DNA from: Brevibacillus sp. JNUCC-41
Lineage (GTDB): Bacteria; Bacillota; Bacilli; Bacillales; DSM-1321
Assembly (NCBI RefSeq): GCF_014844095.1
Contig: NZ_CP062163.1
Span: forward strand, 2,503,001-2,567,000
Direction of reading: 5' to 3'
DNA: 64,000 nucleotides
Part shown: in pieces, positions 11,532-41,914 of the stretch
How the letters are laid out: every line of letters begins with the position of its first letter
Numbering within the stretch: the first letter of the stretch is position 1
Notes under the pieces: model-generated
What the model saw: only the letters and a program-made list of their open reading frames with translations
Databases searched by the model: none
Told to the model about the DNA's origin: nothing
Program-made: the position numbers and the translations under genes

Positions 11532-11553
11532 TTATCATTATCGATAATGATAA
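11532..11553. promoter_or_regulatory. 22-bp perfect palindrome upstream of the ABC genes
   Basis: Half-sites TTATCATTATC and GATAATGATAA form a perfect 22-bp palindrome ending about 30 bases before the small membrane protein start. Eighteen bases (11538-11555) recur exactly at 16447-16464, upstream of the NRPS operon. GATAAT at 11549-11554 could serve as a -10 element with a weak TTTTCA -35 about 19 bases upstream. The binder may be the divergent winged-helix protein or a Fur-family protein; the sequence does not decide. Confidence 0.6.
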
Positions 11554-11583
11554 TAATATTTCATTTTCAAAGGAGTGGTATAT

Positions 11584-11823
11584 ATGGAATTGCATTATGG
11601 ATGGAATGAATTGAAAGATATTGATTTCATGTCGATTCTGCCGATTGTTTTACCGGTAATTGCTATTGGGATGATTTTAGTGCTTATAGCATTAATTGAT
11701 TTATACAGAAATCGAAAGACGAGGAAAAATGTTTTATTGTGGACACTCATCATTATTTTTGCAAATACTATCGGTCCAATTCTGTACTTCGTTATTGGAA
11801 GAAAGGACAGTGAAAGAATATGA
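11584..11823 (+). CDS. Small PLDc_N-domain membrane protein (YxlE/LugI-like position)
   Basis: A 79-aa membrane protein with two hydrophobic segments (about residues 20-42 and 53-72). It carries the PLDc_N signature ending ANTIGPILYFVIGRKDSERI. ATG 11584 follows AAAGGAGTGG. The stop overlaps the next ATPase gene (ATGA), so they are translationally coupled. Such proteins precede ABC ATPases in the B. subtilis sigY operon (yxlE-yxlF-yxlG), and a small membrane protein accompanies the lugdunin transporters. Probably an accessory to export or immunity; the mechanism is unknown. Confidence 0.8.
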   Translation: MELHYGWNELKDIDFMSILPIVLPVIAIGMILVLIALIDLYRNRKTRKNVLLWTLIIIFANTIGPILYFVIGRKDSERI

Positions 11824-13510: not shown

Positions 13511-13559
13511 GTTGGGGATGGAAATGTGTTAATCATGAAGTGATGGGAGGATGATAACT

Positions 13560-15922: not shown

Positions 15923-16210
15923 ATGGGGAAGCACCATGATAGAGATTTTAAAATTTATGCTGCTCGATTAGTATTGGAAGAAGGCAGAAAACCTAGGGAA
16001 TTGGCTGAAGAACTTAATATCTCGACACCTACATTAAGAAATTGGGTCAACATCTATAAAGAAGCAAATGAAGAAGGCCTGGCGGACTCCAGTATTGGTT
16101 TTTCAGGTCTCAGTCAGAAAGAGGAAAAGGATAAAATAATTAAAGATTTACAGGAAGAGAATGAGATATTAAAAAAGGCAATGCACATTTTTACGAAACA
16201 ACCAAAATGA
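15923..16210 (+). CDS. Orphan IS3-family OrfA (HTH transposase subunit)
   Basis: A 95-aa protein with an N-terminal HTH (HDRDFKIYAARLVLEEG, then ELNISTPTLRNWV) and a C-terminal leucine-zipper-like helix ending EENEILKKAMHIFTKQPK, the usual end of IS3/IS150 OrfA. AAAGGAG precedes ATG 15923. No OrfB (DDE integrase) is found downstream; instead a strong terminator follows within 20 bases. It is either an IS remnant whose OrfB was lost, or an OrfA kept as a DNA-binding regulator between the transporter and NRPS operons. The frame is intact. Confidence 0.8.
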   Translation: MGKHHDRDFKIYAARLVLEEGRKPRELAEELNISTPTLRNWVNIYKEANEEGLADSSIGFSGLSQKEEKDKIIKDLQEENEILKKAMHIFTKQPK

Positions 16211-16225
16211 TCGAACCGCATTTAA

Positions 16226-16278
16226 GCCATATTTTATTTTTCACAAATTATAGTGAAAAATAAAATATGGCTTTTTTT
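16226..16278. terminator. Strong terminator after OrfA
   Basis: Two perfectly complementary 19-base arms (16226-16244 and 16253-16271) flank an 8-base loop, followed by seven Ts. It separates the transporter/OrfA unit from the biosynthetic operon, so the latter needs its own promoter. Confidence 0.85.
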
Positions 16279-16433: not shown

Positions 16434-16464
16434 TTGTGATAAAGTGTTATCGATAATGATAATA
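16434..16464 (+). promoter_or_regulatory. Putative promoter and operator of the NRPS operon
   Basis: TTGTGA (16434-16439), an 18-base spacer and GATAAT (16458-16463) form a plausible sigma-A promoter. The -10 lies inside TTATCGATAATGATAATA (16447-16464), the same 18 bases found upstream of the ABC transporter genes. A protein bound there would block the promoter. The 16279-16576 gap is otherwise AT-rich with no gene. Confidence 0.5.
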
Positions 16465-16576
16465 GGTAATAATTAACCTAGAAAATGAAATAATTGTTTA
16501 AAAAAAGAAATTTTTGAGGGAAAAAATGGATAAAATCTACGGATTTCCAGAAAAAAAGAGAGGAGGAAAATTATAA

Positions 16577-17290
16577 TTGATTGAATATTTTATGAATAAG
16601 AAAAAGATTTATAAATCTTACATCAATTTTTATGAAGCGGAATCAGTTAATTTGGACTATATGGATGATATTTTCAACGAAAAGGAATGGAATTATCTTA
16701 ATTTGCAAAATGGCAAAAGAACCATCGAAGCAAAGAAAAGTTTGTACTTTGGAAAAAAAGCAATTATGGAGTTTTTAGATATAGGTTTGGATGAAATAAA
16801 GAATGTATCACTGTTGAAAGGAGTCTTTGGACAGCCGATTATTGTTAATAACCTGTTCTTATTAATGAACATGAACATGGGGATATCCATCGCTCATACG
16901 GATAAAACATTCGGAATACTGATTTTTGATCAACTGCATCCAATGGGAATCGATATAGAAACAAAAACGAAAACTGATTCTGAATTTTTAGAGACCTATT
17001 TAACTAAATCCGAGAAAAAGATGATTAAGGATAGTGAAGGTCTTTTAAATAATGAAATTTTCTTTAGTGCAAAAGAAAGTCTATCAAAAATACTAAAAAC
17101 AGGATTGACCTCTCCACTTGAAATCTATGAGATTTCTAAGGCTGAAATGGATCATGATAACATCTCACTTTTCTATAAAAATTTTTCCCAGTACAAATCA
17201 GCGGTCGTACTCGTGAATGATGAAATAAGAAGCATTACCATTCCAATAAACTCTACGAAAATAATTAAGGGGGAATACCAATGGAATTAA
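16577..17290 (+). CDS. 4'-phosphopantetheinyl transferase (Sfp-type)
   Basis: A 237-aa enzyme that moves phosphopantetheine from CoA to the serine of carrier domains, needed to activate the eight intact carriers encoded downstream. The Mg/CoA motifs are present: PMGIDIE near residue 130 and FFSAKESLSKILKTG near 170. An upstream GVFGQP element and ISIAHTD also match Sfp family landmarks. TTG 16577 follows AGGAGG by 10 bases. It is the first gene of the biosynthetic operon and overlaps the next gene by 10 bases. Confidence 0.85.
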   Translation: MIEYFMNKKKIYKSYINFYEAESVNLDYMDDIFNEKEWNYLNLQNGKRTIEAKKSLYFGKKAIMEFLDIGLDEIKNVSLLKGVFGQPIIVNNLFLLMNMNMGISIAHTDKTFGILIFDQLHPMGIDIETKTKTDSEFLETYLTKSEKKMIKDSEGLLNNEIFFSAKESLSKILKTGLTSPLEIYEISKAEMDHDNISLFYKNFSQYKSAVVLVNDEIRSITIPINSTKIIKGEYQWN

Positions 17291-17937
17291 AAATGGAAGC
17301 AAATGCTGAATTTAATAATAATAAATTAGTACAATATCTTTTTAAAAAAGAGGATAGAGTTCATAAGTTAATAATTTCGTTATTACTACTCAGTTTAATC
17401 GCAGGTATCGAAACGACGCTTTTGTTATATTCTGCGGATCAAAAAGGGATGAATGTATTAAATGGCATGTCCATTTCAGAGATTGGGGCCATGAGTTTTG
17501 CCATTAACACAATTGTAATGGGGGCTCTGGGATTATTTGTCACTTTCATCATTCAAATATTAATTGTGTGCCTATTATTTTTAGTTTTAAAAGAAAGACC
17601 GGTAAATATTAAAGGGATTTGCCAAGCTGTCATAAATGCTGGGATATGCATCGTCATTGGATCTGGTGTTAATGCAATAATCTCATTATTGGTCAAGAGC
17701 AAGGAAACGACATTTACTAGCTTATCCTTACTCGTGCATGATAAAAATTCCATCCTTCACACCTTCATGGCCGAATTTGAATTGTTTTACATTGTCAGTT
17801 TAATCCTATTCAGTTTTAGTTTGGAAAAGTTGGCGCTCGCCAAAAGAAGGAATGCAATAATCATAACGATTGTAATAGCTTTAATTTCTTTAGTTTTTCA
17901 TATGTTGACAGTTGCATCAGGCACATATTTAAAATAA
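17281..17937 (+). CDS. Membrane protein of unknown function in the NRPS operon
   Basis: A 218-aa protein with about five hydrophobic segments (roughly residues 30-52, 72-110, 118-143, 165-187 and 192-214) and a hydrophilic, Asn-rich N-terminus. I see no enzymatic motif. The overall look resembles Yip1-like small membrane proteins, but this is weak. ATG 17281 follows AAGGGGGA. It is wedged between the PPTase and first NRPS gene with 10-base overlap and 9-base gap, so it is probably part of the pathway, perhaps immunity or export. Confidence 0.6.
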   Translation: MELKMEANAEFNNNKLVQYLFKKEDRVHKLIISLLLLSLIAGIETTLLLYSADQKGMNVLNGMSISEIGAMSFAINTIVMGALGLFVTFIIQILIVCLLFLVLKERPVNIKGICQAVINAGICIVIGSGVNAIISLLVKSKETTFTSLSLLVHDKNSILHTFMAEFELFYIVSLILFSFSLEKLALAKRRNAIIITIVIALISLVFHMLTVASGTYLK

Positions 17938-17946
17938 TGGGGGAAA

Positions 17947-25488: not shown

Positions 25489-25499
25489 GGGGAATATAT

Positions 25500-25766
25500 A
25501 TGGGAACAACTATTGCTGTGAAGGAACGGTTAATTGAGGAAAAGCTTATAGGATTTTGGAAAGAGATTTTAGAACAAGAAACGATAGGTACAGATTCCAA
25601 CTTCTTTGACTTAGGCGGGAATTCCCTTTTAGCCATGCAATTCATTCAAATGGTGAAGAATAACATGGGAGTGAAATTGCCAATCAAAGTGATGTTCGAA
25701 CAATCAACCATCCAGGAACTATCCTTACTTATCAAACAATTGGATGATATTAATAAGTTAGGTTGA
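25500..25766 (+). CDS. Free-standing peptidyl carrier protein (module 3 T)
   Basis: An 88-aa carrier protein, a single T domain with the site FFDLGGNSLLAMQF; Ser42 should carry phosphopantetheine. ATG 25500 follows GAGGGGAA; the upstream ATG at 25485 overlaps the previous gene. It lies between the terminal C domain of NRPS 1 and NRPS 2, so it completes an A-less module 3. An A domain from elsewhere must charge it, perhaps A1. It is separated from NRPS 2 by 26 bases. Confidence 0.88.
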   Translation: MGTTIAVKERLIEEKLIGFWKEILEQETIGTDSNFFDLGGNSLLAMQFIQMVKNNMGVKLPIKVMFEQSTIQELSLLIKQLDDINKLG

Positions 25767-25792
25767 ATGGAAAAGAATTGAGGTGTTTTTCT

Positions 25793-28700
25793 ATGAACAG
25801 GATAATCAGTGAAACGGAAGATAGGCTATTAAACTTGATTTCAATTGTTATCAAACCTTTTAAAATTTCACTAATGGAGGATATGAATGAATCACTAAGC
25901 ACAAATGAAAAAAAAGATGAGTTCTTGTCTTTGATAAAACGGGAGTTTGGTATTCAATTAACACCGGAAATCATTTCAAGTCAATGGAATATAGAAAAGC
26001 TGGCAAGTTTTCTGGACATGCTCATCAGCATGAGGGAAGTCGAGGTAAATAAGCCTTATAAACGTGGGAAAAGTGAAGGGATGCTATCTCATAATCAAGA
26101 TCGGATGTATCTGTTTGACAGCCTGAATGAAAGGAAAATGCTCTATAATATGCCATTTAAATTCATTTTAAATGGCATAGTGGACATCGATGACCTGCAA
26201 CAGGCATTAGATTTCATGATTGAACGTCATGAAACATTGCGAACCAATTTCAAGGGTGAAGAACATCAAATCCTTCAATTCTTATCAAAAAAAAGCAGAA
26301 ACATAATTGCCTATGAGGACTGTCGGGAAGTAGATCCCGAAGTCAGTAATATAATGGTCACCTCCCATCTTACTGAAGAAATGGAAAGATGTTTCGACCT
26401 GGAAAATGATCATTTATTTAATATGAAACTATTTCGAATTGACGAAGAAAAGCATTATTTAGTATGCAATTTCCACCATATCATTTTTGATGGAGTATCG
26501 TTTGTCACCTTTTTCGAAGAGTTAATGGAGATTTATGAAAGAATTCAAACGGGCAAGGTTGGGGATATTCCTCCTCTGGACATACAATATTTAGATTATG
26601 CTGTCTGGCATAAGGAGTGGGTCAAGGAAAGTACGCCAAGCCAAAGGAGGTTTTGGGAGAGTTATTTAGATCAAGAGGAAGACGCATTGGAACTTCCATT
26701 TGACTTTCAACGTCCAAAATCACCTTCATACTCAGGTGGAAGGCTGGAAATGGCGATAACGGACGAACTCCGTGTATTGATAGACAGGATTTTAAAGGAG
26801 AAGGGCACGACTTTATATGCTTTTATGATGACAGCTTATCAAGTGTTTTTAAGTCAATATACCGGGAAGAATCAAATCATTGTCGGGAGTACCGTGGCAA
26901 ACCGCGGCCAGGTAGAATTTGCCCGGACAGTTGGATGCTTTGTCAATACGCTGCCATTGAAGCTGACCGTGGATGCCACAGAATCATTTCATGAAATATT
27001 GAACCGAAATCGTAAAGTGATTTTTGATGTATTGGAACATCAGGCCTTTCCATTTGAAAAAATCGTTGAAATCATTAATCCGGACAGGGATCTCAGCCAT
27101 TCTCCATTGTTCCAAACAGCACTGGCAATGGAAGAAAGCTTTGATGGGAACTTTAACAATTCATTCTTCACTCTTGAACAAGACAAATTCGAAATTCCTT
27201 ATTCAAATTATGACCTGACCATAAAAGTGAAAGGTTCCCATAACCTGATCCTAGAGTTTGAGTATTCCGATGAACTTTTTAGACGGGAAACAATTGAAAG
27301 ACTCATGTTGAGTTTTGAAAAATGGTTATTCCAAATTTGCAGAAATGGCGATAGACCTATACGTCTTTTGGAGCATTTAGATGACAATCAAATGAATCAA
27401 TTGTTATTTGATTGGCAAGGTGAGGTTTCGGATGCACATCAAAATGAGACGATCACCTCTATATTCGAAAGAATCGTTAAGAAGCATTCGAACAAATTAG
27501 CCGTTGCTGATAATGGTAAGTCCATCACCTATTCGGAATTAGATCAACGATCAAATGTGATTGCTAAATTGCTTAGAAATAATATCGAAAATGGCTCCAA
27601 TAAGGTAGGCCTGCATGTAAACAGATCGATTGATATGGTGATAGGCATGTTGGGAATCATTAAAGCCGGATGTGCATATGTTCCGCTTGATCCCATGCTG
27701 CCAGCTGAAAGGTTGGAATATATCATCAATGATTCGAAAATGGATATATGCATTACGAATCAAATTGAGGTTCCTGCCTTAAAAAAAATAGCTAAAGTGA
27801 TCAATCTTGAATCCGTCCATTACGTGGATACCGATTGCTGTAACGAATCGATTGCGCCATCCGATCTGGCTTACATAATCTATACTTCGGGAACGACTGG
27901 AAAACCTAAAGGTGTCATGTTATCCCATAGAGGAGTAGTGAATTTAATAATAAGCCAAAACAAGTACTTACAACTTGATGAGACCTCTAGGGTATTACAA
28001 TTTGCCACTTTTAATTTTGACGCTTCCATCTATGAGATTTTTGGAAGCTTATTAAATGGTGCAGAGCTGCATATCGGGAATAATAAGGAGGAAATGTTTG
28101 ATTTATTCGCTTTGGAAAATCAAATCAAAAATGAAAAGTTAACTCACCTAGTATTGCCGCCTGCAGTTTTGCAAGAACTCAATATTGAGGAATCTGATGT
28201 GAAGTTCGTTGGTTCGGCCGGATCTGAATGTCCAATAGCTTTGCTGGATCGCTATCGAAATATAAACTTTTATAACGCCTACGGTCCAACGGAATATTCA
28301 GTATGGACCACGATTGAAATGTTTAAAGCGTTCGAAAACAATGAGACTGCTAATAATAAAGTATCGATAGGAAAACCTATCCTGAATACTGATATCTATT
28401 TACTAAGTCCGGAGCAAAAGCTTGTCCCGATAGGTGCCACAGGGGAAATATATATTGGTGGTGAAGGGTTAGCTGTTGGCTATGTGAATAATGATGATTT
28501 AACGAAAGAAAAGTTCATTGATCATCCTTTTAAATGTGGAAAGCGTTTATATCGCAGCGGCGACCTTGCAAAATTCACGAGTGATGGTGAGTTGATTTTT
28601 CTGGGGCGTAAAGATAATCAAGTGAAAATAAGAGGTTTCCGGGTGGAAGTTGATGAGATTTCGGTCAATCTCAATGCGTATCCTCAAGTAAGTGACTCAT

Positions 28701-30511
28701 TCATTAAGGTTCAGGATCAGCCAAACTTAAATAAACAAATAATCGCTTATTTCACATCCAAACAACAAGTTGATTATGACCACTTAAAAGCATTTTTAAA
28801 AGAGAGATTACCAAGTTACATGATTCCTTCCTTCTTTATGCAAGTGGATAAATTTCCGTTAAATGCAAATGGGAAAATTGATTCAGCGCTTCTACCGGTA
28901 CCCGTAACTAGAAGCAATACATTGGAAGAACCTGAGACGATCAATGAGAAAGTGCTTCTTCAAATTTTTAAGACGGTACTAGGGCTGGATGACATAAGTA
29001 TCCGGGATAACTTTTTTGAACTTGGCGGTGATTCCATTCAGAGCATTCAAATATGTTCTCTAGCAAGGCAGGAAAATATAATCATCAGTCCAAAATCCAT
29101 TTTTGAAAATCAAACGGTAGCAGAGCTGGCAGCGATCGCGAAAACCGAAAATAAGGTCATGATTCAACCAATAGCCACTAGGGGGAATGTGGAACTGACC
29201 CCCATCCAAGAATGGTTCTTTGCAGAACACACGACTTCCATCAATCATTGGAACCAGTCCATTGTTTTTAGTCAAGATTCCTGTGCTCAAATGGAGGACA
29301 TTGAAAAAATTCTATCTCAAATCGTGGAACATCATGATGGATTGTTAACCCTATTTAAAAAACATGAAAATAAATATATCGGGAATATAGACTCAAAACA
29401 TAAAACATGGGAGTTAGTCTATAAGGATTTACATCATTTAGATGATGAAACGCGAATAAGAATGAGAGATGAATGGGAAAGTAAGGCTCAGCGTTCATTG
29501 GACATAAGTAATGGACCGATCATGAAAATGCTTGTTTTAAAAGAACAATCAAACAAGTATCGCTTCTTTTGGGTAATCCATCATTTATTGATTGATGCAG
29601 TTTCCTGGAGAATTTTACTTGAAGATTTCAATGCTCTCCATGATCAAGCATTGAACAATCAAACAGGGAAGCTTACTTATAAAACTTCATCATTCAAAGA
29701 CTGGTCAAACTTCTTGAAAAAATATAATGAATCGTTGATGGACCCTGAAACAATCCGTTATTGGGAACAAAAAACAAAAAGTGAAATAACGGATTTTAAG
29801 GTAGCGGAAGACTTTATAGCTAAAGAAGAAAGAACAATGGAGAAATCATTCAGTGAAGAAGAAACTGAATTATTGATCCAGGAATTTTCAAGGCAATCAA
29901 AAGCGACTGTGGAAGAAGTATTGTTGTCATTAATTGCAAAGAGTTTTAAAAAATCTTTTGAGGTGAAGAACTTCTGGATCGAAGTAGAAGGGCATGGCAG
30001 GGAAATGGCGGATGAAACAATGGATGTTACTCGGACCGTTGGCTGGTTTACTGCGATGTATCCGATATTGCTGCATTCAGGAGAGACATTTGATGACACT
30101 TTAAAAAACACGAAGAATGCTATAAGGGAAATTCCAAATAAAGGTTTTGATTATGGCGTTATCAAATATTTACGCCCTGGGGTCATTAAGGAGCCGGATA
30201 TCCACGTTACTTTTAATTATTTAGGAAAATTGGACTCCCAATTTGAATCATCCAAAAGCAGGGACTTTGGTGAGTTTGAAAAAAAACCAAAAATCCATTT
30301 CCTGGCATTGATCCAGGACGGAAAACTATCAATAAAAATAATCTCAAAATTAGCTGAAGAAAAGATGAACTTAATAATAGAAGCTATTGGTAATGTCGTC
30401 ATGGAAATCAAGGGAACTGAATTTGACCAAGCTTCTTTAATAGAAAGTGATTTTCCAGATGCGATGCTTACTGAGGAAGATTTGTTTCATATATTGAATT
30501 CCAATAAATAA
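25793..30511 (+). CDS. NRPS 2: degenerate T-C-A-T-E (module 4)
   Basis: A 1572-aa synthetase. Residues 1-75 look like a carrier fold with normal spacing (IS plus 22 residues to KREFGIQL, then NIEKLASFLDML), but the GGDS site reads LSTN, with Asn38 replacing the serine, so it cannot be primed. C is about 95-530 (HHIIFDG near 230), A about 560-1045, T has Ser1081 (ELGGDS), and E is about 1130-1570 (HHLLIDAVSW near 1262, GHGRE, TRTVGWFT). The A code reads about DAYVGAAVWK, which I cannot assign. The E motif has DA instead of DG. ATG 25793 is chosen over the earlier frame start because a GAGGTG precedes it. The product is residue 4, in D form. Confidence 0.9.
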   Translation: MNRIISETEDRLLNLISIVIKPFKISLMEDMNESLSTNEKKDEFLSLIKREFGIQLTPEIISSQWNIEKLASFLDMLISMREVEVNKPYKRGKSEGMLSHNQDRMYLFDSLNERKMLYNMPFKFILNGIVDIDDLQQALDFMIERHETLRTNFKGEEHQILQFLSKKSRNIIAYEDCREVDPEVSNIMVTSHLTEEMERCFDLENDHLFNMKLFRIDEEKHYLVCNFHHIIFDGVSFVTFFEELMEIYERIQTGKVGDIPPLDIQYLDYAVWHKEWVKESTPSQRRFWESYLDQEEDALELPFDFQRPKSPSYSGGRLEMAITDELRVLIDRILKEKGTTLYAFMMTAYQVFLSQYTGKNQIIVGSTVANRGQVEFARTVGCFVNTLPLKLTVDATESFHEILNRNRKVIFDVLEHQAFPFEKIVEIINPDRDLSHSPLFQTALAMEESFDGNFNNSFFTLEQDKFEIPYSNYDLTIKVKGSHNLILEFEYSDELFRRETIERLMLSFEKWLFQICRNGDRPIRLLEHLDDNQMNQLLFDWQGEVSDAHQNETITSIFERIVKKHSNKLAVADNGKSITYSELDQRSNVIAKLLRNNIENGSNKVGLHVNRSIDMVIGMLGIIKAGCAYVPLDPMLPAERLEYIINDSKMDICITNQIEVPALKKIAKVINLESVHYVDTDCCNESIAPSDLAYIIYTSGTTGKPKGVMLSHRGVVNLIISQNKYLQLDETSRVLQFATFNFDASIYEIFGSLLNGAELHIGNNKEEMFDLFALENQIKNEKLTHLVLPPAVLQELNIEESDVKFVGSAGSECPIALLDRYRNINFYNAYGPTEYSVWTTIEMFKAFENNETANNKVSIGKPILNTDIYLLSPEQKLVPIGATGEIYIGGEGLAVGYVNNDDLTKEKFIDHPFKCGKRLYRSGDLAKFTSDGELIFLGRKDNQVKIRGFRVEVDEISVNLNAYPQVSDSFIKVQDQPNLNKQIIAYFTSKQQVDYDHLKAFLKERLPSYMIPSFFMQVDKFPLNANGKIDSALLPVPVTRSNTLEEPETINEKVLLQIFKTVLGLDDISIRDNFFELGGDSIQSIQICSLARQENIIISPKSIFENQTVAELAAIAKTENKVMIQPIATRGNVELTPIQEWFFAEHTTSINHWNQSIVFSQDSCAQMEDIEKILSQIVEHHDGLLTLFKKHENKYIGNIDSKHKTWELVYKDLHHLDDETRIRMRDEWESKAQRSLDISNGPIMKMLVLKEQSNKYRFFWVIHHLLIDAVSWRILLEDFNALHDQALNNQTGKLTYKTSSFKDWSNFLKKYNESLMDPETIRYWEQKTKSEITDFKVAEDFIAKEERTMEKSFSEEETELLIQEFSRQSKATVEEVLLSLIAKSFKKSFEVKNFWIEVEGHGREMADETMDVTRTVGWFTAMYPILLHSGETFDDTLKNTKNAIREIPNKGFDYGVIKYLRPGVIKEPDIHVTFNYLGKLDSQFESSKSRDFGEFEKKPKIHFLALIQDGKLSIKIISKLAEEKMNLIIEAIGNVVMEIKGTEFDQASLIESDFPDAMLTEEDLFHILNSNK

Positions 30512-30589
30512 GGGGTTAAAGAGTTTAATAGAATGATTGCAGTCGGCAGATATGGATGACACAAGAAAATGGAATCGGGAGGCGCAAAA

Positions 30590-33500
30590 TTGGAGAAATC
30601 TATTCAGAATATTTACTCATTAACTCCGCTTCAAGAAGGAATCCTTTATGAACTGGAAATGAACAATACAGCAGAGAACCTTTACATTTCTCAAATGCGA
30701 ATAAGGATAACGGGCTCTCTTGAAGTACATGCATTATGTCAGGCATGGAGCCAGGTTGTAGAACGTCATGAAGCATTAAGAATGAAGGTCATCTCTAAAA
30801 ATATCGAAAACAATGTTCAGGTTGTATTCAATGCAATGGATTATCAACCAGAAATAATCGATATGATAGAGTTTAGTAAACATGATCAATTAAATGAAAT
30901 TCAAAGAGTGATATCCAAATCCCAGGAGATGGATGTGAATAACTCCAATTTGATGAAACTCCAGTTAGTGAAAATTGAAGAAAATCAGTATATCTTGATT
31001 TGGACTCATCACCATATAATTTTGGATGGCTGGAGTACCAGCATAGTCATCGATGAACTCTTCGTTATTTACAGCCGAATTGTAGGAAAAGAATCCAAAC
31101 GGCTTATTGAAAAACCAAAGCAATATGGAGATTTTATCCGGTACATGAATAAAATCGATGCGGAAGATCTAAACCATTTTTGGAAAGAACTAGCAAAGGA
31201 TATTGAGCAGCCGACAATCACATTCCCCGCTCTGAAGCATGTGAAGGAAAACCAGCAGGAAAATGATCTATTTTGGGAGCTGGATAAGAAACAGAGTGAG
31301 CTTTTAAGGGAGTTTGCCGCCAAAAACCATGTAACGATGAATGTATTATTACAGTTAATTTGGTCGATCGTCCTAAAGGAAATGTCCAATCAAAATCGAA
31401 TAGTCTTTGGAATTGTAAGCTCTGGCAGGTCGAATAACCTATTTAAATCCGAAGAAATTGTTGGGCTACTCATTAATACGATCCCGATGATAGTTGAAAT
31501 GAACGAAACAGATAGCATTACTGATTTACTGAAACGCTTCCAGGAAACATTAAACAATATGCTGGATTACTCTCAAATTTCTTTAGTGGATATCAAAAGG
31601 CATACGAAATTAAAGAAGGAAGATCCCATTTTCGAAACTTTATTTGTTTATGAAAATTATCCGGAAGCGAAAAACGATGGATTTGAAATTAACTGGGAAA
31701 TTGAAGGCGGGAAAGAGACACATAGCTTTCCATTATCATTACAGGCCCAGGATAATAAAGATACGATTAAATGCAAATTATATTTTAATCGCTGCTTCCT
31801 AGAACGTTCACTAGTAAATGGTATCCAATCAGCCTTCATGCAGATTGCCCATCAAATTACAAAAATACAGCAAATTGACGAAATATATGTCGATGTTGAT
31901 TTTTCAAAACTAAAAAATAATGTGAGTAAGAACCATCAAGCAACAAGTAACAATAAGATCGCATCCACATCTGTTAATCAAGAACTTAAAGAAATATGGC
32001 AAGAGTTTTTCTTGAACAGTGAGATTAATGAGGATTCTGATTTCTTTCAATTGGGCGGGCATTCGATAACAGCCATGAAATTGGTGTCTAAAATAAATAA
32101 AAGACTTGATGCGAATATGAAACTAGCCGATTTGTTTGAAAATCCTACATTGAAAATGCTAAGTCATAAGATCTTTCCGGAAGTGAATACGCCTCCGAAA
32201 GATGTTACATCTTTCGTGGAAAAGACATTTTTGGAAGTCTTATCAACAAGTCAAATCGATAAAAAGGCCGATTTTTTTGAAGTGGGCGGACACTCGATTT
32301 TAGCCATGAAGTTATTGACGAAATTAAACAAAGAATACAATCAAATTCTAACCTTGAAAAATATTTTTCAAAATTCAACAATTGATTCGTTGACGGCCTT
32401 CATCATTAATGAAATGTCAGATCATGACTTAGATCACAGTGAAGCACAACAAAAAGATCATGTTTTATCCAGTAACCAAGAGGCTTTGTGGTTCAACGAA
32501 AAACTTAATGGTAAGACAACCAATTATAATATCCCTCAGAAATATAAAATTACTGGTGCAGTGGATACTTCGATTATGGAAAAAACAGTAAACTGTGTCA
32601 TTAGTAGACATGAGATTTTAAGGACCACCGTCCGTGAAAATGCCGGGAAGGGCTACCAGGAAATCAAGGAAAATTTGTACATTAAAATAGATGAAATCGA
32701 CCTAACTGCATTAAAGCCCGAACAGCAATCGACTCGTATGCTGCAAATCGAAGAAGATGTCCAGTCGGAAATTTTTGAAATTGAAAAAGGTCCTCTCATG
32801 ACAGTGAAACTGGTTAAATTGAGCGAAAAAGAGTCTGTTTTATTTGTGAATCTCCACCATTTCATTTTTGACGGATGGTCAGTGAGTATATTTTTAGACG
32901 AATGGTTATCTTTTTATGACAGTGAAGTGAATGAAAAGGAACTCATCCTTGAAAACGACTTTAAACAATATAAGGATTTTGCCTTTGAGCAGAAAAGCTG
33001 GTTAGAACATAACATTAAAGAAGAATCGCTATTTTGGAAAACAAACCTATCTGGGGAATTACCTAAATTGGAGCTTCCTTTAGATACGATGCGTACAAAA
33101 GAAAACCGCACCGATGGCAGTAGTTTCATGGTGGAACTAACAAGTGAAGAGCTCCATGGTTTAAAGAGGATGTCCTTTGAACAAAACTCGACATTATTCA
33201 TGACGCTGCTAACGATGTATCAGTCTTTTCTAGCAAAATATACAGGTCAAAACGATATCATCGTTGGAAGTCCTTTGGCGAATAGAATGATAGAAGGAAC
33301 AGAAAAATCGATAGGTTATTTTGTCAATACACTGCCCTTTAGATTAAAGCTGGGACTTGAGGAGACATTCGAAGAGATTCTTGAAAGAAATACAAACCAT
33401 ATCATCGACATCTATGATCATCAGCAAATGACATTGGAGAAAATTGTTGAAGTCATTAACCCTGAAAGAAATTTAGCGAACACTTCATTATTTCAAACCG

Positions 33501-36500
33501 TCTTCATTTTACAAAATAATGCCAAAGCTTCATTTGAAAGTGAATACATAAAGTTAACGCCTGAAGTGATGAAATCAAAGGCAGCAAAATTCGATTTGAG
33601 TTTAGCTGCAGAGGAATATGAGGATAAGCTTTTGTTCGCTTTTGAGTATAATTCAGGGATCTTCAATGAACGAACGATTCAAACTCTAGCTGAAAATTTC
33701 TTAGAATGGATTAGGAAAATTACCTATCAGCCTGAACGATCGATTGACAAGGTATCTGTGGTGAGTATGCGGCAGGAAAAAGTATTATTGGAAGAATGGC
33801 AGGGAGAAACCATTCGCTTTGAGGGGATCAATGACACAATCCCAGAAGCCTTCCATAAAATTGTTGAGCGGTTTCCTGATAAGATAGCCATTGTTGATGG
33901 TCCGAGAACCATTACATATCGCGAATTGAATGATAAGAGCAATCGACTCTCACACTATTTACTAAGCAAAGGGATTTCTAAAGAAGAAAGAATCGGAATT
34001 TATATGAATCGATCAATTGATATGGTGACAGGGATGTTGGCAGTAATCAAAGCTGGTGCTGCGTATGTTCCATTGGATCCTCATTATCCTGATGAACGAT
34101 TAAGCTACATGGTGGAAGATTCGTCCATTTCCTATTGCTTGAGTCACAAAGAACTCGGAAAGAATGGTTTGATTGACTCATCCAAAATAATATATTTTGA
34201 AGATATTGAAAAAGAATCGGATCTGTTAATGGAAACGAATCTTCACATTGCGAATCAGAGTGACTTAGCATATGTCATTTATACCTCGGGAACGACAGGC
34301 AGGCCAAAAGGAGTCATGTTGGAACATAGTGGAATCATTAACTTAGTTTATAACCAAAATGAAATGATGTGTTTGGATACGTCAGCTAAAGTGCTGCAAT
34401 TCGCCACGTTTAATTTTGATTCATCCGTCATAGAGATTTTCAGCACACTCTTATTCGGTGCCGAGCTGCATATAAGTGTAGATAAAGAAAATCAATTTGA
34501 CATGAGTAAACTTGTTGAACAAATTAAGCGTGAAGGAATTTCTCATATCATTTTACCGCCTGCTGTGTTGAAAGAACTGCCAATCATTGAATTGAGCACG
34601 ATTAAAGTATTGGGATCTGCAGGTTCAGAATGTCCAGTTGAGCTCGTTTCAAAGTTTAAACATATAGCGTTTTTCAATGGCTACGGGCCTACGGAATATT
34701 CCGTATGTACAAGTTTTAAAATGTTTCCCCCGAATGAAGATGTTACAGATGAATTCGTTGTATCGATCGGGAAGCCTTTGACCAACACGGTTGTACTTGT
34801 GTTGGATGAAAATCGGAAACTAGTGCCGGCAGGGTCAGTTGGAGAACTTTACGTGGGAGGAATTGGGTTAGCTAGGGGATATTTGAATAATGAGAGCCTG
34901 ACAAATGAAAGATTCGTAGCCAATCCATTCAACCCTGCCGAAAAAGTATACAGAACTGGGGATTTAGTTAAGCATAACGAAGCTGGGGAATTAGTTTATG
35001 TAGGCAGGGCGGACGATCAAGTGAAAATAAGGGGATACCGTGTTGAACTATCGGAGATTAATGTTTCATTACGAAAAATAGCAGAAATCAAGGATAGTTA
35101 TGTAACGGTATTGGAAGATGGATTTGAGCATAAAAGGCTAATTGCTTATTATACGGTGAATGATGAGGTTTCGGTAGATTCAATCAGAAGAAGATTGAAA
35201 GAAACACTGCCTGCTTTCATGATTCCTGCTCATTTTATGCAACTGGATAAATTTCCTTTGACGCCGAATGGAAAAGTCGATCGGAAATCCCTGCCGAAAT
35301 GGACGGAACAGTTTGATGAGAGGCAGGAAAAAGTGCTGGATGTGCAAGAATTGTCCAAAACTGAAATAGAGCTTCTGACAATCTGGAGAAATGTTTTAAA
35401 CGATCCGACTATAGGACCGGAAGATAACTTTTTCGAATGTGGCGGTGATTCAATCATCAGTATTCAAATATGCTCTGCCGCCAAAGAAAAGGATTTATTT
35501 ATAACTCCTAAAGATTTATTTGAATGCCAAACGGTCCGTGAGCTAGGGAATGTTGTAAATGAGCTGGAGCAAAAACAAGTGGTTCAAGAAACAGTATCAG
35601 GTTATGTCCCGTTGACGCCAATTCAATCATGGTTTTTTAATGAAAACCATGAGAATATCCATCATTGGAATCAGTCAGTCGTTTTGATGAAGGATAATGC
35701 GTTGACGTCTGAACACTATAAAAAAATCATCATGAAATTAATTGATCAGCACGATGTTTTAAGGACATTATTTGAAAAACATGGTGATTCATATATCGGC
35801 AATATTTCAAATGCTGATACGGTATACGGTTTTCATGAGTACCATGTTTCAAGTTTTAAAGATGAAAAAAGCTTGAAGGAAATTAATGAGCTAGAAGAAA
35901 ACGCCCAACAAAGCTTGAATATACACAATGGCCCCTTGATGAAGTTCCTTCTATTCAGGGATCAAAGGGAGGTAAGGATTTTTTGGGTGATTCATCACCT
36001 TGTGGTTGATGGTGTTTCGTGGAGGATACTTCTTGAACATTTCGAAAGATGCTATCAACAGATAAAGAATGAACAAGAACCATCACTGCCTCTAAAAACG
36101 ACTTCTTATAAACAATGGTCCGAAAAACTAAATGAATACAAGAACACTGACCTACCGGAAGAGGCCGTTCAATATTGGGAAAAGGAAATGAATGTTCCGG
36201 TTTCTCCGCTGACGGAAGACTTAGGAGAAACGTGTGATTTTGAAAACATGTACAAAATAGTAGTGGATGGGGCCCAAACACAAAACCTCATTAAAAACAC
36301 TTTAAGAAAACATAAAACGACGATTGATGAAGTTTTATTATCCGTTATCGCACATGCACTTTCCAATCGAATGGGAATCGGTGAATTTTGGCTCGATTTA
36401 GAAGGACATGGAAGAGAGGATATTGATGATGATATTGATTTATCAAGGACGGTAGGGTGGTTCACCTCAATCTATCCAGTAAGGATTAAAGGAATGGCGA

Positions 36501-38263
36501 CTTTGGGCTCAACCTTAAGAAATACAAAAAACATATTGAGAAATGTGCCAAACAAAGGGTTTGACTTTGGAATCCTAAAGTATATTTCCAATCGGAATCA
36601 TAACTATCCAGATAGCCTTGTGAGTTACAACTATCTAGGCCAGTTTAATAACACGGGTGATATGGCACAAACCAATAGCAGCAATATCGATTCGAACTAT
36701 AAATTCCCATATAAACTCAATTTTGTCGCCAGCATCGTAAACAATAGACTCATGCTGAATATTATTGGCGATAGCAATAATGAGAACTTCCGAATGATAT
36801 GTAAAGAAGTTGAAGTACATTTAAACAAAATATTAAGTGGAAGTGCAGATTTGTATGACTCCATTGTCGAAACGGATTTTGAAGCTGAGAAAATAGTCGA
36901 TGGAAGCACGATCACCCATTTCATAAATAAGTTTAATAATATTGAAGAGATTTACCCAGTGACATCACTTCAAGAAGGAATGTTATTCCATAGTGAAGTA
37001 ACCCAAAGTCCTGAATATATTTCACAGCTATCCATTGATTTAGTGGGTGATCTGGACTTGGCTAAATTAGAAGAAGCCTGGAATGAAACCTGTAGAAAAT
37101 ACGATGTTCTAAGATCGGTTTTCAGGCGCAATCAATTGGGGGACCGTTATCAAATCATACTTAATGACATTTATTATGTGTTTAATCATGTGGATCTTAC
37201 GATGTTTAGTGAAGACGAGTCAGGATCCAAGATAGACAACCTTTTAGAGCATAGCAAAAACAGACAAACGGATTTAGAAAACGGTCCGCTCATGAACATC
37301 ACTTTGATACAGCTATCGGATCATCGCTATAAATTCATATGGACACATCATCATGCTTTAATAGATGGCTGGAGCCTGCAAATTGTCATTAATCATTTTT
37401 TGGATAATTACCGAAACCCATCCAATACGACAAAAGATAGTGATGAACATAAGAATGCTTATAAACAAGTCATGAATCATGTCAGAAATATTAATAAACA
37501 GGAAGAGGCAGCATTTTGGAATAAAGAATTGAGGGATTTCGAACAAGTAAAAGCACTAGTGAGTAATAAAGCGGATAAGGTAGCTTTTACATCGGATAAA
37601 GTTATTGAATATAGCGTACCTAAAGAGTTTACCGAAAGATTAATAGAATTATCCAAGCGACATAGAAAGACCATTAATACCGTTGTTCAAGGAGTTTGGG
37701 GCATCGTTCTATCCTACCTAAGTGAAAGCGACTCGGTATGCTATGGGGTGACAAGCTCAGGAAGGAACCTGAGCATTCCGCATATTGAATCAGCTGTAGG
37801 CTTATTGATCAATACTCTGCCATTCTCTTTGAAAATCGATTGGGATGTTGATTTGCAATCCTATCTAACTGCTATTCAAAACAAGCAATTACAAATGAGA
37901 GAGTATGAGTTCAGTTCACTTACGGATATAAAGAAATACGCTGAAATTCCATGGGATAAGGAATTATTCCAACATATATTTGTATTTGAAAATTATCCGA
38001 GCACAGAACTGGCAGAAGATTCGCAAATCATGATTGAAGATTCAGTTGGAAGTGAATCGACCAATTTTGATCTTACGTTCTCTGCGGCTGTAGTGCAATC
38101 CAAGCTGCATTATAAAATCATTTATAAAGAAAGTAAATTCGATGAAATTGAAATTTTACGTTTTATGGATTCCATGCAGGAAATATTCTTGAAACTAACA
38201 GAAGATGAAACACTACTATCTATTGGTAAATTAATAAATCACTTGAAAGTTGGGGCCCGATGA
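30590..38263 (+). CDS. NRPS 3: C-T-T-C-A-T-E-C (modules 5, 6 and start of 7)
   Basis: A 2557-aa synthetase. First C about 1-430 (HHHIILDG near 138; begins SLTPLQEGILYE, a D-acceptor type). It is followed by two tandem carriers with Ser492 and Ser569 (both GGHS) and no A domain. Then C about 625-1060 (HHFIFDG), A about 1090-1575, T with Ser1621, E about 1670-2090 (HHLVVDGVSW, GHGRE, SRTVGWFT) and a final C about 2110-2557 (HHHALIDG). The A pocket reads about DSIIGAGVCK, which I cannot assign. TTG 30590 is preferred because CGGGAGGCG precedes it by about 7 bases; ATG 30569 is the alternative. The last C passes the chain to NRPS 4, whose gene overlaps by 4 bases. Confidence 0.92.
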   Translation: MEKSIQNIYSLTPLQEGILYELEMNNTAENLYISQMRIRITGSLEVHALCQAWSQVVERHEALRMKVISKNIENNVQVVFNAMDYQPEIIDMIEFSKHDQLNEIQRVISKSQEMDVNNSNLMKLQLVKIEENQYILIWTHHHIILDGWSTSIVIDELFVIYSRIVGKESKRLIEKPKQYGDFIRYMNKIDAEDLNHFWKELAKDIEQPTITFPALKHVKENQQENDLFWELDKKQSELLREFAAKNHVTMNVLLQLIWSIVLKEMSNQNRIVFGIVSSGRSNNLFKSEEIVGLLINTIPMIVEMNETDSITDLLKRFQETLNNMLDYSQISLVDIKRHTKLKKEDPIFETLFVYENYPEAKNDGFEINWEIEGGKETHSFPLSLQAQDNKDTIKCKLYFNRCFLERSLVNGIQSAFMQIAHQITKIQQIDEIYVDVDFSKLKNNVSKNHQATSNNKIASTSVNQELKEIWQEFFLNSEINEDSDFFQLGGHSITAMKLVSKINKRLDANMKLADLFENPTLKMLSHKIFPEVNTPPKDVTSFVEKTFLEVLSTSQIDKKADFFEVGGHSILAMKLLTKLNKEYNQILTLKNIFQNSTIDSLTAFIINEMSDHDLDHSEAQQKDHVLSSNQEALWFNEKLNGKTTNYNIPQKYKITGAVDTSIMEKTVNCVISRHEILRTTVRENAGKGYQEIKENLYIKIDEIDLTALKPEQQSTRMLQIEEDVQSEIFEIEKGPLMTVKLVKLSEKESVLFVNLHHFIFDGWSVSIFLDEWLSFYDSEVNEKELILENDFKQYKDFAFEQKSWLEHNIKEESLFWKTNLSGELPKLELPLDTMRTKENRTDGSSFMVELTSEELHGLKRMSFEQNSTLFMTLLTMYQSFLAKYTGQNDIIVGSPLANRMIEGTEKSIGYFVNTLPFRLKLGLEETFEEILERNTNHIIDIYDHQQMTLEKIVEVINPERNLANTSLFQTVFILQNNAKASFESEYIKLTPEVMKSKAAKFDLSLAAEEYEDKLLFAFEYNSGIFNERTIQTLAENFLEWIRKITYQPERSIDKVSVVSMRQEKVLLEEWQGETIRFEGINDTIPEAFHKIVERFPDKIAIVDGPRTITYRELNDKSNRLSHYLLSKGISKEERIGIYMNRSIDMVTGMLAVIKAGAAYVPLDPHYPDERLSYMVEDSSISYCLSHKELGKNGLIDSSKIIYFEDIEKESDLLMETNLHIANQSDLAYVIYTSGTTGRPKGVMLEHSGIINLVYNQNEMMCLDTSAKVLQFATFNFDSSVIEIFSTLLFGAELHISVDKENQFDMSKLVEQIKREGISHIILPPAVLKELPIIELSTIKVLGSAGSECPVELVSKFKHIAFFNGYGPTEYSVCTSFKMFPPNEDVTDEFVVSIGKPLTNTVVLVLDENRKLVPAGSVGELYVGGIGLARGYLNNESLTNERFVANPFNPAEKVYRTGDLVKHNEAGELVYVGRADDQVKIRGYRVELSEINVSLRKIAEIKDSYVTVLEDGFEHKRLIAYYTVNDEVSVDSIRRRLKETLPAFMIPAHFMQLDKFPLTPNGKVDRKSLPKWTEQFDERQEKVLDVQELSKTEIELLTIWRNVLNDPTIGPEDNFFECGGDSIISIQICSAAKEKDLFITPKDLFECQTVRELGNVVNELEQKQVVQETVSGYVPLTPIQSWFFNENHENIHHWNQSVVLMKDNALTSEHYKKIIMKLIDQHDVLRTLFEKHGDSYIGNISNADTVYGFHEYHVSSFKDEKSLKEINELEENAQQSLNIHNGPLMKFLLFRDQREVRIFWVIHHLVVDGVSWRILLEHFERCYQQIKNEQEPSLPLKTTSYKQWSEKLNEYKNTDLPEEAVQYWEKEMNVPVSPLTEDLGETCDFENMYKIVVDGAQTQNLIKNTLRKHKTTIDEVLLSVIAHALSNRMGIGEFWLDLEGHGREDIDDDIDLSRTVGWFTSIYPVRIKGMATLGSTLRNTKNILRNVPNKGFDFGILKYISNRNHNYPDSLVSYNYLGQFNNTGDMAQTNSSNIDSNYKFPYKLNFVASIVNNRLMLNIIGDSNNENFRMICKEVEVHLNKILSGSADLYDSIVETDFEAEKIVDGSTITHFINKFNNIEEIYPVTSLQEGMLFHSEVTQSPEYISQLSIDLVGDLDLAKLEEAWNETCRKYDVLRSVFRRNQLGDRYQIILNDIYYVFNHVDLTMFSEDESGSKIDNLLEHSKNRQTDLENGPLMNITLIQLSDHRYKFIWTHHHALIDGWSLQIVINHFLDNYRNPSNTTKDSDEHKNAYKQVMNHVRNINKQEEAAFWNKELRDFEQVKALVSNKADKVAFTSDKVIEYSVPKEFTERLIELSKRHRKTINTVVQGVWGIVLSYLSESDSVCYGVTSSGRNLSIPHIESAVGLLINTLPFSLKIDWDVDLQSYLTAIQNKQLQMREYEFSSLTDIKKYAEIPWDKELFQHIFVFENYPSTELAEDSQIMIEDSVGSESTNFDLTFSAAVVQSKLHYKIIYKESKFDEIEILRFMDSMQEIFLKLTEDETLLSIGKLINHLKVGAR

Positions 38264-41163
38264 TAAGTAAATCGATGACGACGAATAAATTGATGTCAAT
38301 AACTGAAGCTTTTATAAAAGTTGCGGAAGATAAGCAGGCGAAAGCGGCACTTTGTGAAAATGGCAGGCAAATTACTTATAAAGAATTAGATATTCTTTCA
38401 GATAATCTTGCTAAAAGGATCATTGATTTGGGGATTCAAGAAGAAACAATGATCGGGATTCCAAGCAAAAGGTCCATTGAACTGATCATCGGTATGCTTG
38501 CCATAATTAAGTCAGGCTGTTGCTATGTTCCGATAGACGAAAAGTACCCATTAAAAAGATTGGAATATATGCTTGCGGATACGGATATGAAGTTCTTTTT
38601 ATCGTTTAATGGCCAAGAAGGGAAGCTCCGTGAATTGGATATTGAGCCAATTCCATTTGAGATTAATGAACTAGGCAAGGAAGGGCACATCCCCGTTAAC
38701 CGTTCTTCGCAGAATGGTCTTGCATATGTTATCTATACATCAGGAACGACTGGAAAGCCAAAAGGGGTAATGATAGAGCAAAAGAGTGTAGTCAATTTAG
38801 TATTGAACTCTGAGATACTTGAAATAAACGAAAATAATAGAGTGGCTCAATTTTCCAACCCATGCTTTGACGCCGCAACTTTTGAGATATGGGGAGCTTT
38901 ATTGAATGGCGCAACTTTATTCTTGATGTCGAATGAGTTCACTTCTTTTGATGATTGGAGAGAAGCGATATCCGTTGGAAAGGTGGATGTAGCTTTTTTT
39001 ACGACAGGTCTTTTTAATGCAATGGTTGATGAGGATCCATTAATTTTTGAAGGATTAAAGAAAATTGTGGTTGGCGGAGATAAAATCTCGGTTTCCCATG
39101 TAAAAAGATTGAAGCAAACAATCGGTCATTTTTCCTTGATTAATGGGTATGGACCAACTGAATGCACGACTTTTGCCATTTGCCATGAGGTCGAAGACAA
39201 AGATGTCGATGTTATTCCTATTGGAAAGCCGTTAAGCAATGTAGCAATCAAGATTCTATCTGAAGAACAAGTAGAGGTAGTGGATGGGGAAGCAGGCGAG
39301 ATCTACATTGGCGGACAAGGGGTCATGAGAGGTTATTTAAATCAGCCGCAATTAACGGAACAAGCTTTGATCATGGATGATTTGAATCAGGCGAAGTGGT
39401 ACAAAACAGGTGATCATGGCGTCCGGTTACACAATGGTGAAATCCTGTACAAAGGCCGAAAAGACAGTCAAGTGAAAATTCGCGGCTTTAGAATTGAATT
39501 GAATGAAATTCAGGAAAAGCTTGATAAATACATGAAGATTGAAAGTTCAGTAGTTGCGGTTAAAAACATCAATGGTGAGAATTATGTTATCGCTTATTAC
39601 AAACATAAAGATGAAAAAGCGGTTGACGCTGAAAAGGATATTAAAGACTATCTGAGCAATGAATTGCCGAATTATATGATTCCCCATTTTTTTGTCAGAG
39701 TGGATGATTTCCCGCTTAATGCCAACGGTAAAGTGGATAAAGACAAATTATTGGATATGGATTTCATGCAAAATAAAACTTCCTTAACCAATCAAGAAAC
39801 TGGAAAGAAAAAAGAAGTATTGGAGATTTGGAAAAATGTATTAGGAAATCCAAGTCTAGGATTGGACGACAACTTCTTTGAAAATGGAGGCCATTCCATT
39901 TTAGCTACAAAACTGGTCTATGTAATGAAGGAAACCGTACTTCCTGAGGCCACTTTACAAGTATTATTGGAAAATAACACAGTCAATAAATTTGTTGAGG
40001 CACTTGAAGTCGATTCAGCGGGCAGCATGGAAGCAGTGATGGAAAAGGATTCCATTCTCACTCCAGCGTTGATGGAGAAAATAAGGGAAATATCCACTAA
40101 ACCAGTGGAGATTGAAAAAAATATAATGATTACAGGTGGAACAGGGTTTTTAGGGGCACATCTATTAAATAAATTGTTACTGGAAATGGAAGATGTCAAA
40201 ATCTATTGTTTGGTTAGATTTCCTTCAAGAAATAGATTGAAAGATACTTTAATGAAATATGGTCTTTGGCAGGATGATTTCGTAAGTAGAATCGTTGTAA
40301 TTGAAGGGGATCTTAGTAAGCATCAATTTGGTCTGGATGATATGACATATGAGAAATTAAGCAATGATGTTTCTCAAGTCTATCATGTCGGTGCCGAAAC
40401 GAATTTCTTCGAGCCATATAGCAAATCAAAGATTTCAAATGTGGATGGTGTAGTGGAGATGATTAAGTTTGCTTCATCATACACTCGGAAAAACATTTAT
40501 TATGCCTCAACGCTTTCTGTCTTGACCGGCGAAAGGAAATGGGACGAGGAAGACGAATTGGTTTACTCCCCCGATTTAATGATCGGGTACAGCCAGTCCA
40601 AATGGGTTGCCGAGAAATTGCTCCTTCAAGCAAGGGAACATGGACTGACCATCGATATTTTCCGATTAGGCAGGATTTCATCTAATTCAAACGGGGTTTG
40701 GAACGAGAAAGATATGTTGTACAAGGTTTTTGAATCATTTATTGAACAAAGGATATTGCCATTTAAAGAGGAAATTCATTTTGAATTGATGCCAGTCGAC
40801 TTTGTAAGTGAGTTCATTTACAAAATATCAAGATTGAATGCGGATCAAAAGCTCGGGATCTATCATATGTTCAATGATCAGAGGGTTTCAAGTGAATTCG
40901 TGACCTCCTTCTTCGAAAAAAATGAAATACCTTACTCCAACATGGATTTGGAAGAATGGTTACAATCATTAAAAGAAAAGACCCAATCTAACGAGATTCA
41001 TTCATTAAGTGCTTTGTCCCAGTTAATTGATGAATCAACAAAATTAAAAGAGTCGGAAATCCTGCAATCCAAAACCAAGAAGGAAATGGAATTGATATCA
41101 ATGAAAATGCCGGAAATCGATTCAGGGTATGTTGAAAGCTTCATGAAGTTCATGCTGAAATAA
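38260..41163 (+). CDS. NRPS 4: A-T-R termination module (module 7)
   Basis: A 967-aa protein. A about 10-495 (YVIYTSGTTGKPKG near 155), T with Ser546 (ENGGHS), and a C-terminal thioester reductase from about residue 620: nucleotide site MITGGTGFLGAHLL, ASTLSVLTGE, and catalytic YSQSK near 777. The A code reads DAFFVGGTFK, close to Val and Ile codes. The reductase uses NAD(P)H to release the chain as an aldehyde (or alcohol after a second reduction). No type I thioesterase is present. ATG 38260 overlaps the NRPS 3 stop. Confidence 0.92.
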   Translation: MISKSMTTNKLMSITEAFIKVAEDKQAKAALCENGRQITYKELDILSDNLAKRIIDLGIQEETMIGIPSKRSIELIIGMLAIIKSGCCYVPIDEKYPLKRLEYMLADTDMKFFLSFNGQEGKLRELDIEPIPFEINELGKEGHIPVNRSSQNGLAYVIYTSGTTGKPKGVMIEQKSVVNLVLNSEILEINENNRVAQFSNPCFDAATFEIWGALLNGATLFLMSNEFTSFDDWREAISVGKVDVAFFTTGLFNAMVDEDPLIFEGLKKIVVGGDKISVSHVKRLKQTIGHFSLINGYGPTECTTFAICHEVEDKDVDVIPIGKPLSNVAIKILSEEQVEVVDGEAGEIYIGGQGVMRGYLNQPQLTEQALIMDDLNQAKWYKTGDHGVRLHNGEILYKGRKDSQVKIRGFRIELNEIQEKLDKYMKIESSVVAVKNINGENYVIAYYKHKDEKAVDAEKDIKDYLSNELPNYMIPHFFVRVDDFPLNANGKVDKDKLLDMDFMQNKTSLTNQETGKKKEVLEIWKNVLGNPSLGLDDNFFENGGHSILATKLVYVMKETVLPEATLQVLLENNTVNKFVEALEVDSAGSMEAVMEKDSILTPALMEKIREISTKPVEIEKNIMITGGTGFLGAHLLNKLLLEMEDVKIYCLVRFPSRNRLKDTLMKYGLWQDDFVSRIVVIEGDLSKHQFGLDDMTYEKLSNDVSQVYHVGAETNFFEPYSKSKISNVDGVVEMIKFASSYTRKNIYYASTLSVLTGERKWDEEDELVYSPDLMIGYSQSKWVAEKLLLQAREHGLTIDIFRLGRISSNSNGVWNEKDMLYKVFESFIEQRILPFKEEIHFELMPVDFVSEFIYKISRLNADQKLGIYHMFNDQRVSSEFVTSFFEKNEIPYSNMDLEEWLQSLKEKTQSNEIHSLSALSQLIDESTKLKESEILQSKTKKEMELISMKMPEIDSGYVESFMKFMLK

Positions 41164-41182
41164 TCGATCCTGGAGAAGGGGG

Positions 41183-41914
41183 ATGGAAGGGCTGAAGAAG
41201 ACAATTTTTTGTTTCCCTTATGCAGGGGGAAGTGCATCTTTTTATAGGGAATGGAAATTTGATGATGATGTGATAGAGGTAGTCCCGCTGGAATACCCAG
41301 GACATGGCAGTAAATATAGTGAACCATTGTGTGACCATATGGCGGATTTGACGGATAAATTAATGAAAGAAATGGAAACGAAGCATCAAATGCATACACT
41401 GGGAAGCATATCTTTGTTTGGACATAGCATGGGTGCGATCGTTGCCTATGAAATTGCGGCAAAATTAGAAGAGAGACATGCTAAAAAAGTAGAGCATATA
41501 TTCATTTCAAGTAAATCGTCTCCAAATTATAAAGTAGATCAAATCGATTGCTCTAATGCAAAACGTTTAAAGCAATCGCTTGAAAAAATCGGGGGAACCA
41601 ACAAGGAACTCCTGGAAACCGAAGATTTCATGAATATATTCCTTCCGATAATCCAGTCGGACTTGAATGTTTTAGCCAACTATCACCATGAAATGAAGCG
41701 CAATAAAAAGGTGGGAAATAAAGCCGTTTTGCTTTTGGGCTCGGATGATTCCGTGACGAAGGAGAGTATCGAAAGCTGGAATGAATATATTGAACATATT
41801 GAAGGATTGCATATATTAAAGGGTGATCATTTCTATTTAAAGCAAAACCAAGATATTGTATTAAAAATCATTCAAGAGTATTTACTAAGAAGTCGTTGTG
41901 AAATTCTGATTTAG
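41183..41914 (+). CDS. Type II (external) thioesterase
   Basis: A 243-aa alpha/beta hydrolase of the GrsT/SrfAD type. It has FCFPYAGGSASFY at the start, EYPGHGSK, the nucleophile elbow LFGHSMGAIVAYE near residue 77, and the catalytic His in KGDHFYL near 215. Such enzymes hydrolyse mis-primed or stalled thioesters from carrier domains. That may matter here because two modules are charged in trans. The gene is 19 bases after NRPS 4 and is the last of the operon. Confidence 0.9.
   Translation: MEGLKKTIFCFPYAGGSASFYREWKFDDDVIEVVPLEYPGHGSKYSEPLCDHMADLTDKLMKEMETKHQMHTLGSISLFGHSMGAIVAYEIAAKLEERHAKKVEHIFISSKSSPNYKVDQIDCSNAKRLKQSLEKIGGTNKELLETEDFMNIFLPIIQSDLNVLANYHHEMKRNKKVGNKAVLLLGSDDSVTKESIESWNEYIEHIEGLHILKGDHFYLKQNQDIVLKIIQEYLLRSRCEILI

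Follow-up and report, generated by a model that had tools for sequence, protein, structure and literature searches.

The stretch of DNA analyzed here, 64,000 nucleotides long and referred to as the window, carries a seven-module NRPS locus, which raises the question of what this locus makes and whether it is new. The original prediction, for positions 16577-41914, was of a fibupeptide-like and possibly undescribed system, with koranimine cited merely as a relative. We found that the NRPS cluster is already known, with its product already linked, and that it is very probably the cluster for koranimine biosynthesis in a Peribacillus species, judging from gene sizes, gene order and the P. frigoritolerans orthologue. 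As an NRPS cluster, kor is ordinary for Peribacillus; the module lying upstream of it carries more weight.

The NRPS ORFs proved to be real, uninterrupted and all on one strand (Table 1). Pfam and local HMMs gave the assembly-line order A1-T1-C2-A2-T2-E2-C3 / T3 / T*-C4-A4-T4-E4 / C5-T5-T5'-C6-A6-T6-E6-C7 / A7-T7-R, that is, seven modules with five A domains and with E domains after T2, T4 and T6, which confirms the predicted domain order with epimerization at modules 2, 4 and 6. An A domain is lacking from modules 3 and 5: 28 residues lie between C5 and T5, and C3 extends to the end of KorA. The HHxxxD motif is kept in every kor C and E domain, and the R domain of KorD scored over the TIGR01746 cut-off, marking it as a terminal thioester reductase and thus a feature of reductive release. 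The start codons were placed at ATG 25500 for T3 and ATG 25793 for KorB. T* at the KorB start gave no HMM match, and the stretch that might carry its serine is absent from the orthologue in Solibacillus; by its sequence it reads as a degenerate carrier. The YknW-like membrane protein behind kfp probably corresponds to the "hypothetical gene" in the published koranimine cluster. No Rfam family was found between positions 8000 and 46000. Downstream of the NRPS genes, on the minus strand, lies a 463-aa ORF (43870-45261) with no Pfam match.

Table 1. Features of the kor locus and its upstream module (positions in the window).
Feature	Position	Strand	Evidence or remark
KorJ (name proposed here), winged-helix repressor, LugJ homologue	10637..11245	-	HTH_20; 35% over 173 aa to LugJ, E=6e-35
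22-bp palindromic operator-like site TTATCATTATCGATAATGATAA, between korJ and korI	11532..11553	. 	
KorI-like small membrane protein, LugI homologue	11575..11823	+	PLDc_N; 49% over 67 aa to LugI
LugE-like ABC ATPase	11820..12725	+	54% over 209 aa to LugE
LugF-like ABC-2 permease	12722..13510	+	39% over 192 aa to LugF; ABC2_membrane_2
Second ABC ATPase, LugG position	13551..14276	+	37% over 230 aa to LugG (moderate)
Second permease, 530 aa, LugH position	14251..15843	+	genome co-occurrence with KorD
IS3-type HTH protein, 95 aa, own ribosome-binding site	15923..16210	+	88-97% conserved, all nine Peribacillus loci
Strong terminator-like 20-bp stem with a T run after it, separating the two operons	16225..16272	+	conserved throughout the nine loci
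Partial operator-like site TTATCGATAATGATAATAGG, upstream of kfp	16447..16466	+	
Kfp, 4'-phosphopantetheinyl transferase, 237 aa	16577..17290	+	ACPS Pfam; size equals published kfp
YknW-like membrane protein	17281..17937	+	weak NCBIfam match NF052650, below cut-off
KorA, A1(Thr)-T1-C2-A2(Leu)-T2-E2-C3	17947..25488	+	Pfam, local HMMs, A codes
T3, free-standing 88-aa carrier with its own ribosome-binding site; no A in module 3	25500..25766	+	
KorB, degenerate T*-C4-A4-T4-E4	25793..30511	+	Pfam, local HMMs
KorC, C5-T5-T5'-C6-A6-T6-E6-C7; module 5 without A	30569..38263	+	Pfam, local HMMs
KorD, A7(Val)-T7-R, terminal thioester reductase	38260..41163	+	Pfam; TIGR01746 over cut-off
KorTE, type II thioesterase, 243 aa	41183..41914	+	Thioesterase Pfam; size equals published korTE

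To analyze the stereochemical pattern, we built an ML tree from 49 domains of the C and E types, taken from kor and the orthologous Solibacillus cluster, from the lugdunin cluster (lug) and a lug-like one, and from two other NRPSs that end in R. C2/C4/C6, C3/C5/C7 and E2/E4/E6 formed three groups (support 99/98, 98/94 and 100/100, respectively), corresponding to LCL, DCL and E domains and agreeing with the L/D assignment made earlier. An alternating heptapeptide of predicted configuration L-D-L-D-L-D-L, released reductively, is therefore supported by both domain order and the C-domain tree.

The A-domain codes were DFWNIGMVHK (A1), DAWFLGNVVK (A2), DAYVGAAVWK (A4), DSIIGAGVCK (A6) and DAFFVGGTFK (A7). 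We take the first to read as Thr, the second as Leu and the last as Val-type. These three fit the koranimine specificities Thr, Leu, Phe, Phe and Val, and the codes of A4 and A6 are non-canonical for Phe.

The gene order kfp - hypothetical - korA - korB - korC - korD - korTE agrees with that of the published koranimine cluster (PMC9640594). Kfp (714 bp/237 aa), korTE (732/243) and korD (2904/967, as in strain BE93) are identical in length to the published genes, korA, korB and korC are within about 1% of the published table, and the two modules without an A domain, 3 and 5, are the very ones that borrow it in the published cluster. P. frigoritolerans RU293 carries an orthologue (KorD 93%); P. 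frigoritolerans BE93 has been reported as a koranimine producer, and the cluster in 50 of 51 genomes of this species (PMC11678259). Given these matches in gene size and order and the P. frigoritolerans orthologue, the suggestion that the cluster was possibly undescribed was wrong: koranimine is not a relative of this system but its likely product. The published descriptions differ from the window in a few respects. In Bacillus sp. NK2003, KorA is a single ORF that includes T3, whereas T3 is separate in BE93, in the window and in the other loci that we examined, and six A domains have been reported for BE93, whereas no sixth was present in any intact locus that we examined. The published description also does not include the upstream regulator and transporter genes.

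We found the kor cluster in 9 of 36 Peribacillus genomes, one copy (G025) being fragmented; all nine loci have T3 as a gene of its own, 88 aa long, and Solibacillus has an 83-aa ORF in its place. A search of the plasmid collection for near-identical DNA gave no match. Outside the genus, Solibacillus merdavium Sa1YVA6 (G506:C53:108000-145000) carries a full koranimine-type cluster of 52-58% identity, the sole distant full-length relative of KorD in a scan of named genomes.

Another reading is that the locus makes a koranimine congener, the same cluster having at least one residue changed through A-domain drift. The Solibacillus orthologue speaks for this, for it has the same A2, A4 and A6 codes and a near-identical Thr code, but its A7 code is changed to DAYFIGATFK, and drift thus occurs in this family. 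The other Peribacillus loci, that of P. frigoritolerans among them, however, share the window codes throughout, except for one A6 position in a single locus (G006), and we consider a congener quite improbable. For koranimine itself, the assembly would run as follows. Kfp would prime the carriers, and KorA would load Thr, add Leu and epimerize it to D. The A-less module 3, made up of C3 and the free T3, would add a second Leu, supplied by the Leu-specific A domain of KorA, and KorB would add D-Phe. The A-less module 5, with its tandem carriers, would then add Val loaded from KorD, followed by D-Phe from KorC and Val from KorD. Finally, the R domain would free the heptapeptide aldehyde, and attack by the N-terminal amine would give the cyclic imine. 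The expected m/z is 804.3 for koranimine and 822.3 for its open aldehyde. In this scheme, domain order and codes come from the sequence, the residues, cross-loading and cyclization from the koranimine literature, and we infer the D configurations.

The fibupeptide-like character ascribed to the locus called for a comparison with lugdunin. We used a Staphylococcus cluster (G478) that matches the published lugJ-IEFGH-R-ABCTDZM in ORF sizes and order and, on that match, appears to be lug of S. lugdunensis. Its domains are A-T in LugD, C-A-T-E-C-A-T in LugA, C-A-T-E in LugB and C-A-T-C-T-E-C-T-R in LugC, and its A codes are compatible with Cys-Val-Trp-Leu-Val, with DLFNLSLIWK as the starter code. 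Lug and kor share seven modules, five A domains, E domains at modules 2, 4 and 6, R release, a PPTase, a type II thioesterase, homologues of LugJ, LugI, LugE and LugF (plus one at the LugG position) and a near-same palindrome. The common C/E order, R release, the LugJ, LugI, LugE and LugF homologues and the palindrome would favor a distinct, undescribed cluster of the lugdunin family in Bacillaceae, making a new compound. In lug, however, the A domains are absent from modules 6 and 7 rather than 3 and 5, and its starter is Cys, while the kor starter code is that of Thr. In addition, the kor C, E and A domains are not nearest to their lug counterparts: in BLAST ranks and in the C-domain tree, kor pairs with Solibacillus and lug with the lug-like cluster (G114), so that a module-by-module descent of kor from lug was rejected. 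With the gene sizes equal to those of the published kor cluster as well, we regard a new lugdunin-family cluster as extremely unlikely. The fibupeptide class is defined by its thiazolidine (PMC11045845). An alternating heptapeptide is predicted for kor from the E positions and the C-domain tree, but the thiazolidine arises from an N-terminal Cys and the starter code is Thr; because of this, kor lies outside the class, although it resembles lugdunin functionally. What stands of "fibupeptide-like" is the module order and the regulator/transporter module, not class membership.

That module occupies positions 10637-15843, where a divergent winged-helix gene and five further genes match lugJ and lugIEFGH in order and size. 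The predicted NRPS span was correct as to its ORFs, but the functional cluster probably begins at 10637, about 6 kb upstream of 16577. Across seven further kor loci of Peribacillus, the counterparts of KorJ are 94-97% identical to it; for the Solibacillus counterpart the value is 64%. Homology to the lug proteins is clear for J, I, E and F and moderate for G. The similarity of KorH to LugH is not clear, HHalign giving a weak result (P-value 0.005-0.029, probability <10%), and no LugR counterpart was found in the kor cluster. The transposase-like ORF at 15923-16210 was considered as a recent insertion, which was rejected because it is kept at the same place in all nine loci. In the searched literature, a single paper mentions koranimine and lugdunin together, and that in passing; a LugJ-like repressor, LugI/E/F-like genes, a second transporter pair at the G/H positions and a palindrome beside kor are new to this literature.

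The upstream operon might instead be an unrelated neighbor outside the koranimine pathway, a reading that concerns the control module only and leaves the identity of the NRPS as it is. The published koranimine borders leave the operon out, and the J-I-E-F set also stands alone, without an NRPS, in several Bacilli. Against this, the permease at the H position and KorD occur in one and the same set of 9 among the 36 Peribacillus genomes, Solibacillus keeps the same regulator/transporter block in the same order and strand upstream of its kor-like genes, and a partial operator-like site precedes kfp. We consider an unrelated neighbor unlikely.

The counterpart of the korJ-korI palindrome in the lug cluster, TTATCATTATCAATAATGATAA, lies between lugJ and lugI and differs from TTATCATTATCGATAATGATAA at one centre position of 22. 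The perfect site occurs once in the complete 5.49-Mb genome, with a chance expectation of 0.01 per 64 kb even if three mismatches are allowed, and in 2.46 Mb of scanned sequence, copies with at most one mismatch were seen only adjoining I-E-F operons. As the pattern was chosen after both the kor and lug sequences had been seen, more weight belongs to the copies that turned up afterwards in other genera. A palindrome of the form TTATCATTATCNATAATGATAA was observed 5' of I-E-F operons in several Bacilli, with NRPS genes present or not, which suggests an operator common to the entire LugJ family. A Fur box was also considered as the source of the GATAATGATAAT repeats, and gave no match with up to 3 mismatches. 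The operator sequence offers a tag for finding other clusters of the kor/lug type.

In S. lugdunensis, the lugI promoter is repressed by LugJ and relieved by lugdunin (PMC11980582), and LugEF and LugGH serve lugdunin export and producer protection (PMC7927808). By homology, the LugJ-like repressor would occupy the palindrome ahead of the transporter operon, and possibly a site ahead of kfp too; koranimine would release it, so that export and immunity would rise with the product. We lean towards such control, in which a product-sensing repressor governs export of and immunity to a D,L-cyclic peptide as for lugdunin. Membrane-depolarizing antibacterial activity marks the fibupeptides; koranimine has been reported to lack antibacterial or antifungal activity, which weakens the need for immunity. 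It has so far no assigned biological activity, and its lugdunin-type neighbors lead to the hypothesis of membrane action and self-sensing. In its full form, this would place koranimine functionally alongside lugdunin and gramicidin, as a hydrophobic cyclic peptide of alternating D and L residues acting as a membrane ion carrier or channel, sensed by its own LugJ-type repressor, which turns on an exporter/immunity operon through a cross-genus operator; we offer this wider picture tentatively, as somewhat doubtful.

Since J-I-E-F sets stand alone in other Bacilli, they may represent a resistance module of general use that was recruited repeatedly, and the permease tree agrees with this. In that tree, one well-supported side holds both the kor and the lug copies, away from the copies of the linear gramicidin cluster (lgr) and of G350. 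A single NRPS-linked clade of LugF-type permeases was unsupported: five label changes were needed, and 134 of 500 shuffles gave as low a number. The lgr cluster of Brevibacillus shares with kor alternating E domains, R release and adjacent transporter genes of the I-E-F type, but lies on a different branch of the permease tree. Linear gramicidin is a linear 15-residue product. At G270:C1:3109500-3140000 we noticed a linear-gramicidin-like synthetase with codes of the Leu-Trp-Leu-Trp-Gly type and a terminal R domain, with transporter genes of the I-E-F type immediately after it.

The 2020 lugdunin transporter paper reported transporter homologues outside lug only without biosynthesis genes. We observed a complete lug-like cluster outside Staphylococcus (G114:C10:60000-95000), with homologues of lugIEFGH (H 37.5%, G 65%, F 51%, E 54.5%). 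Its NRPS genes follow the order of LugD/A/B/C; the Cys starter code, DLFNLSLIWK, is that of lug, and module 6 contributes a sixth A domain. The GC content of this cluster is 0.36, versus 0.46-0.48 around the stand-alone modules of genus-mates. A further seven-module NRPS (G350:C1:2055000-2091000) combines R release with E domains at modules 2, 4 and 6 and has an A domain in each of its seven modules, the codes reading Thr-Val-?-Leu-Val-Leu-Val; it also has a starter C domain, and transporter genes of the E/F type lie upstream.
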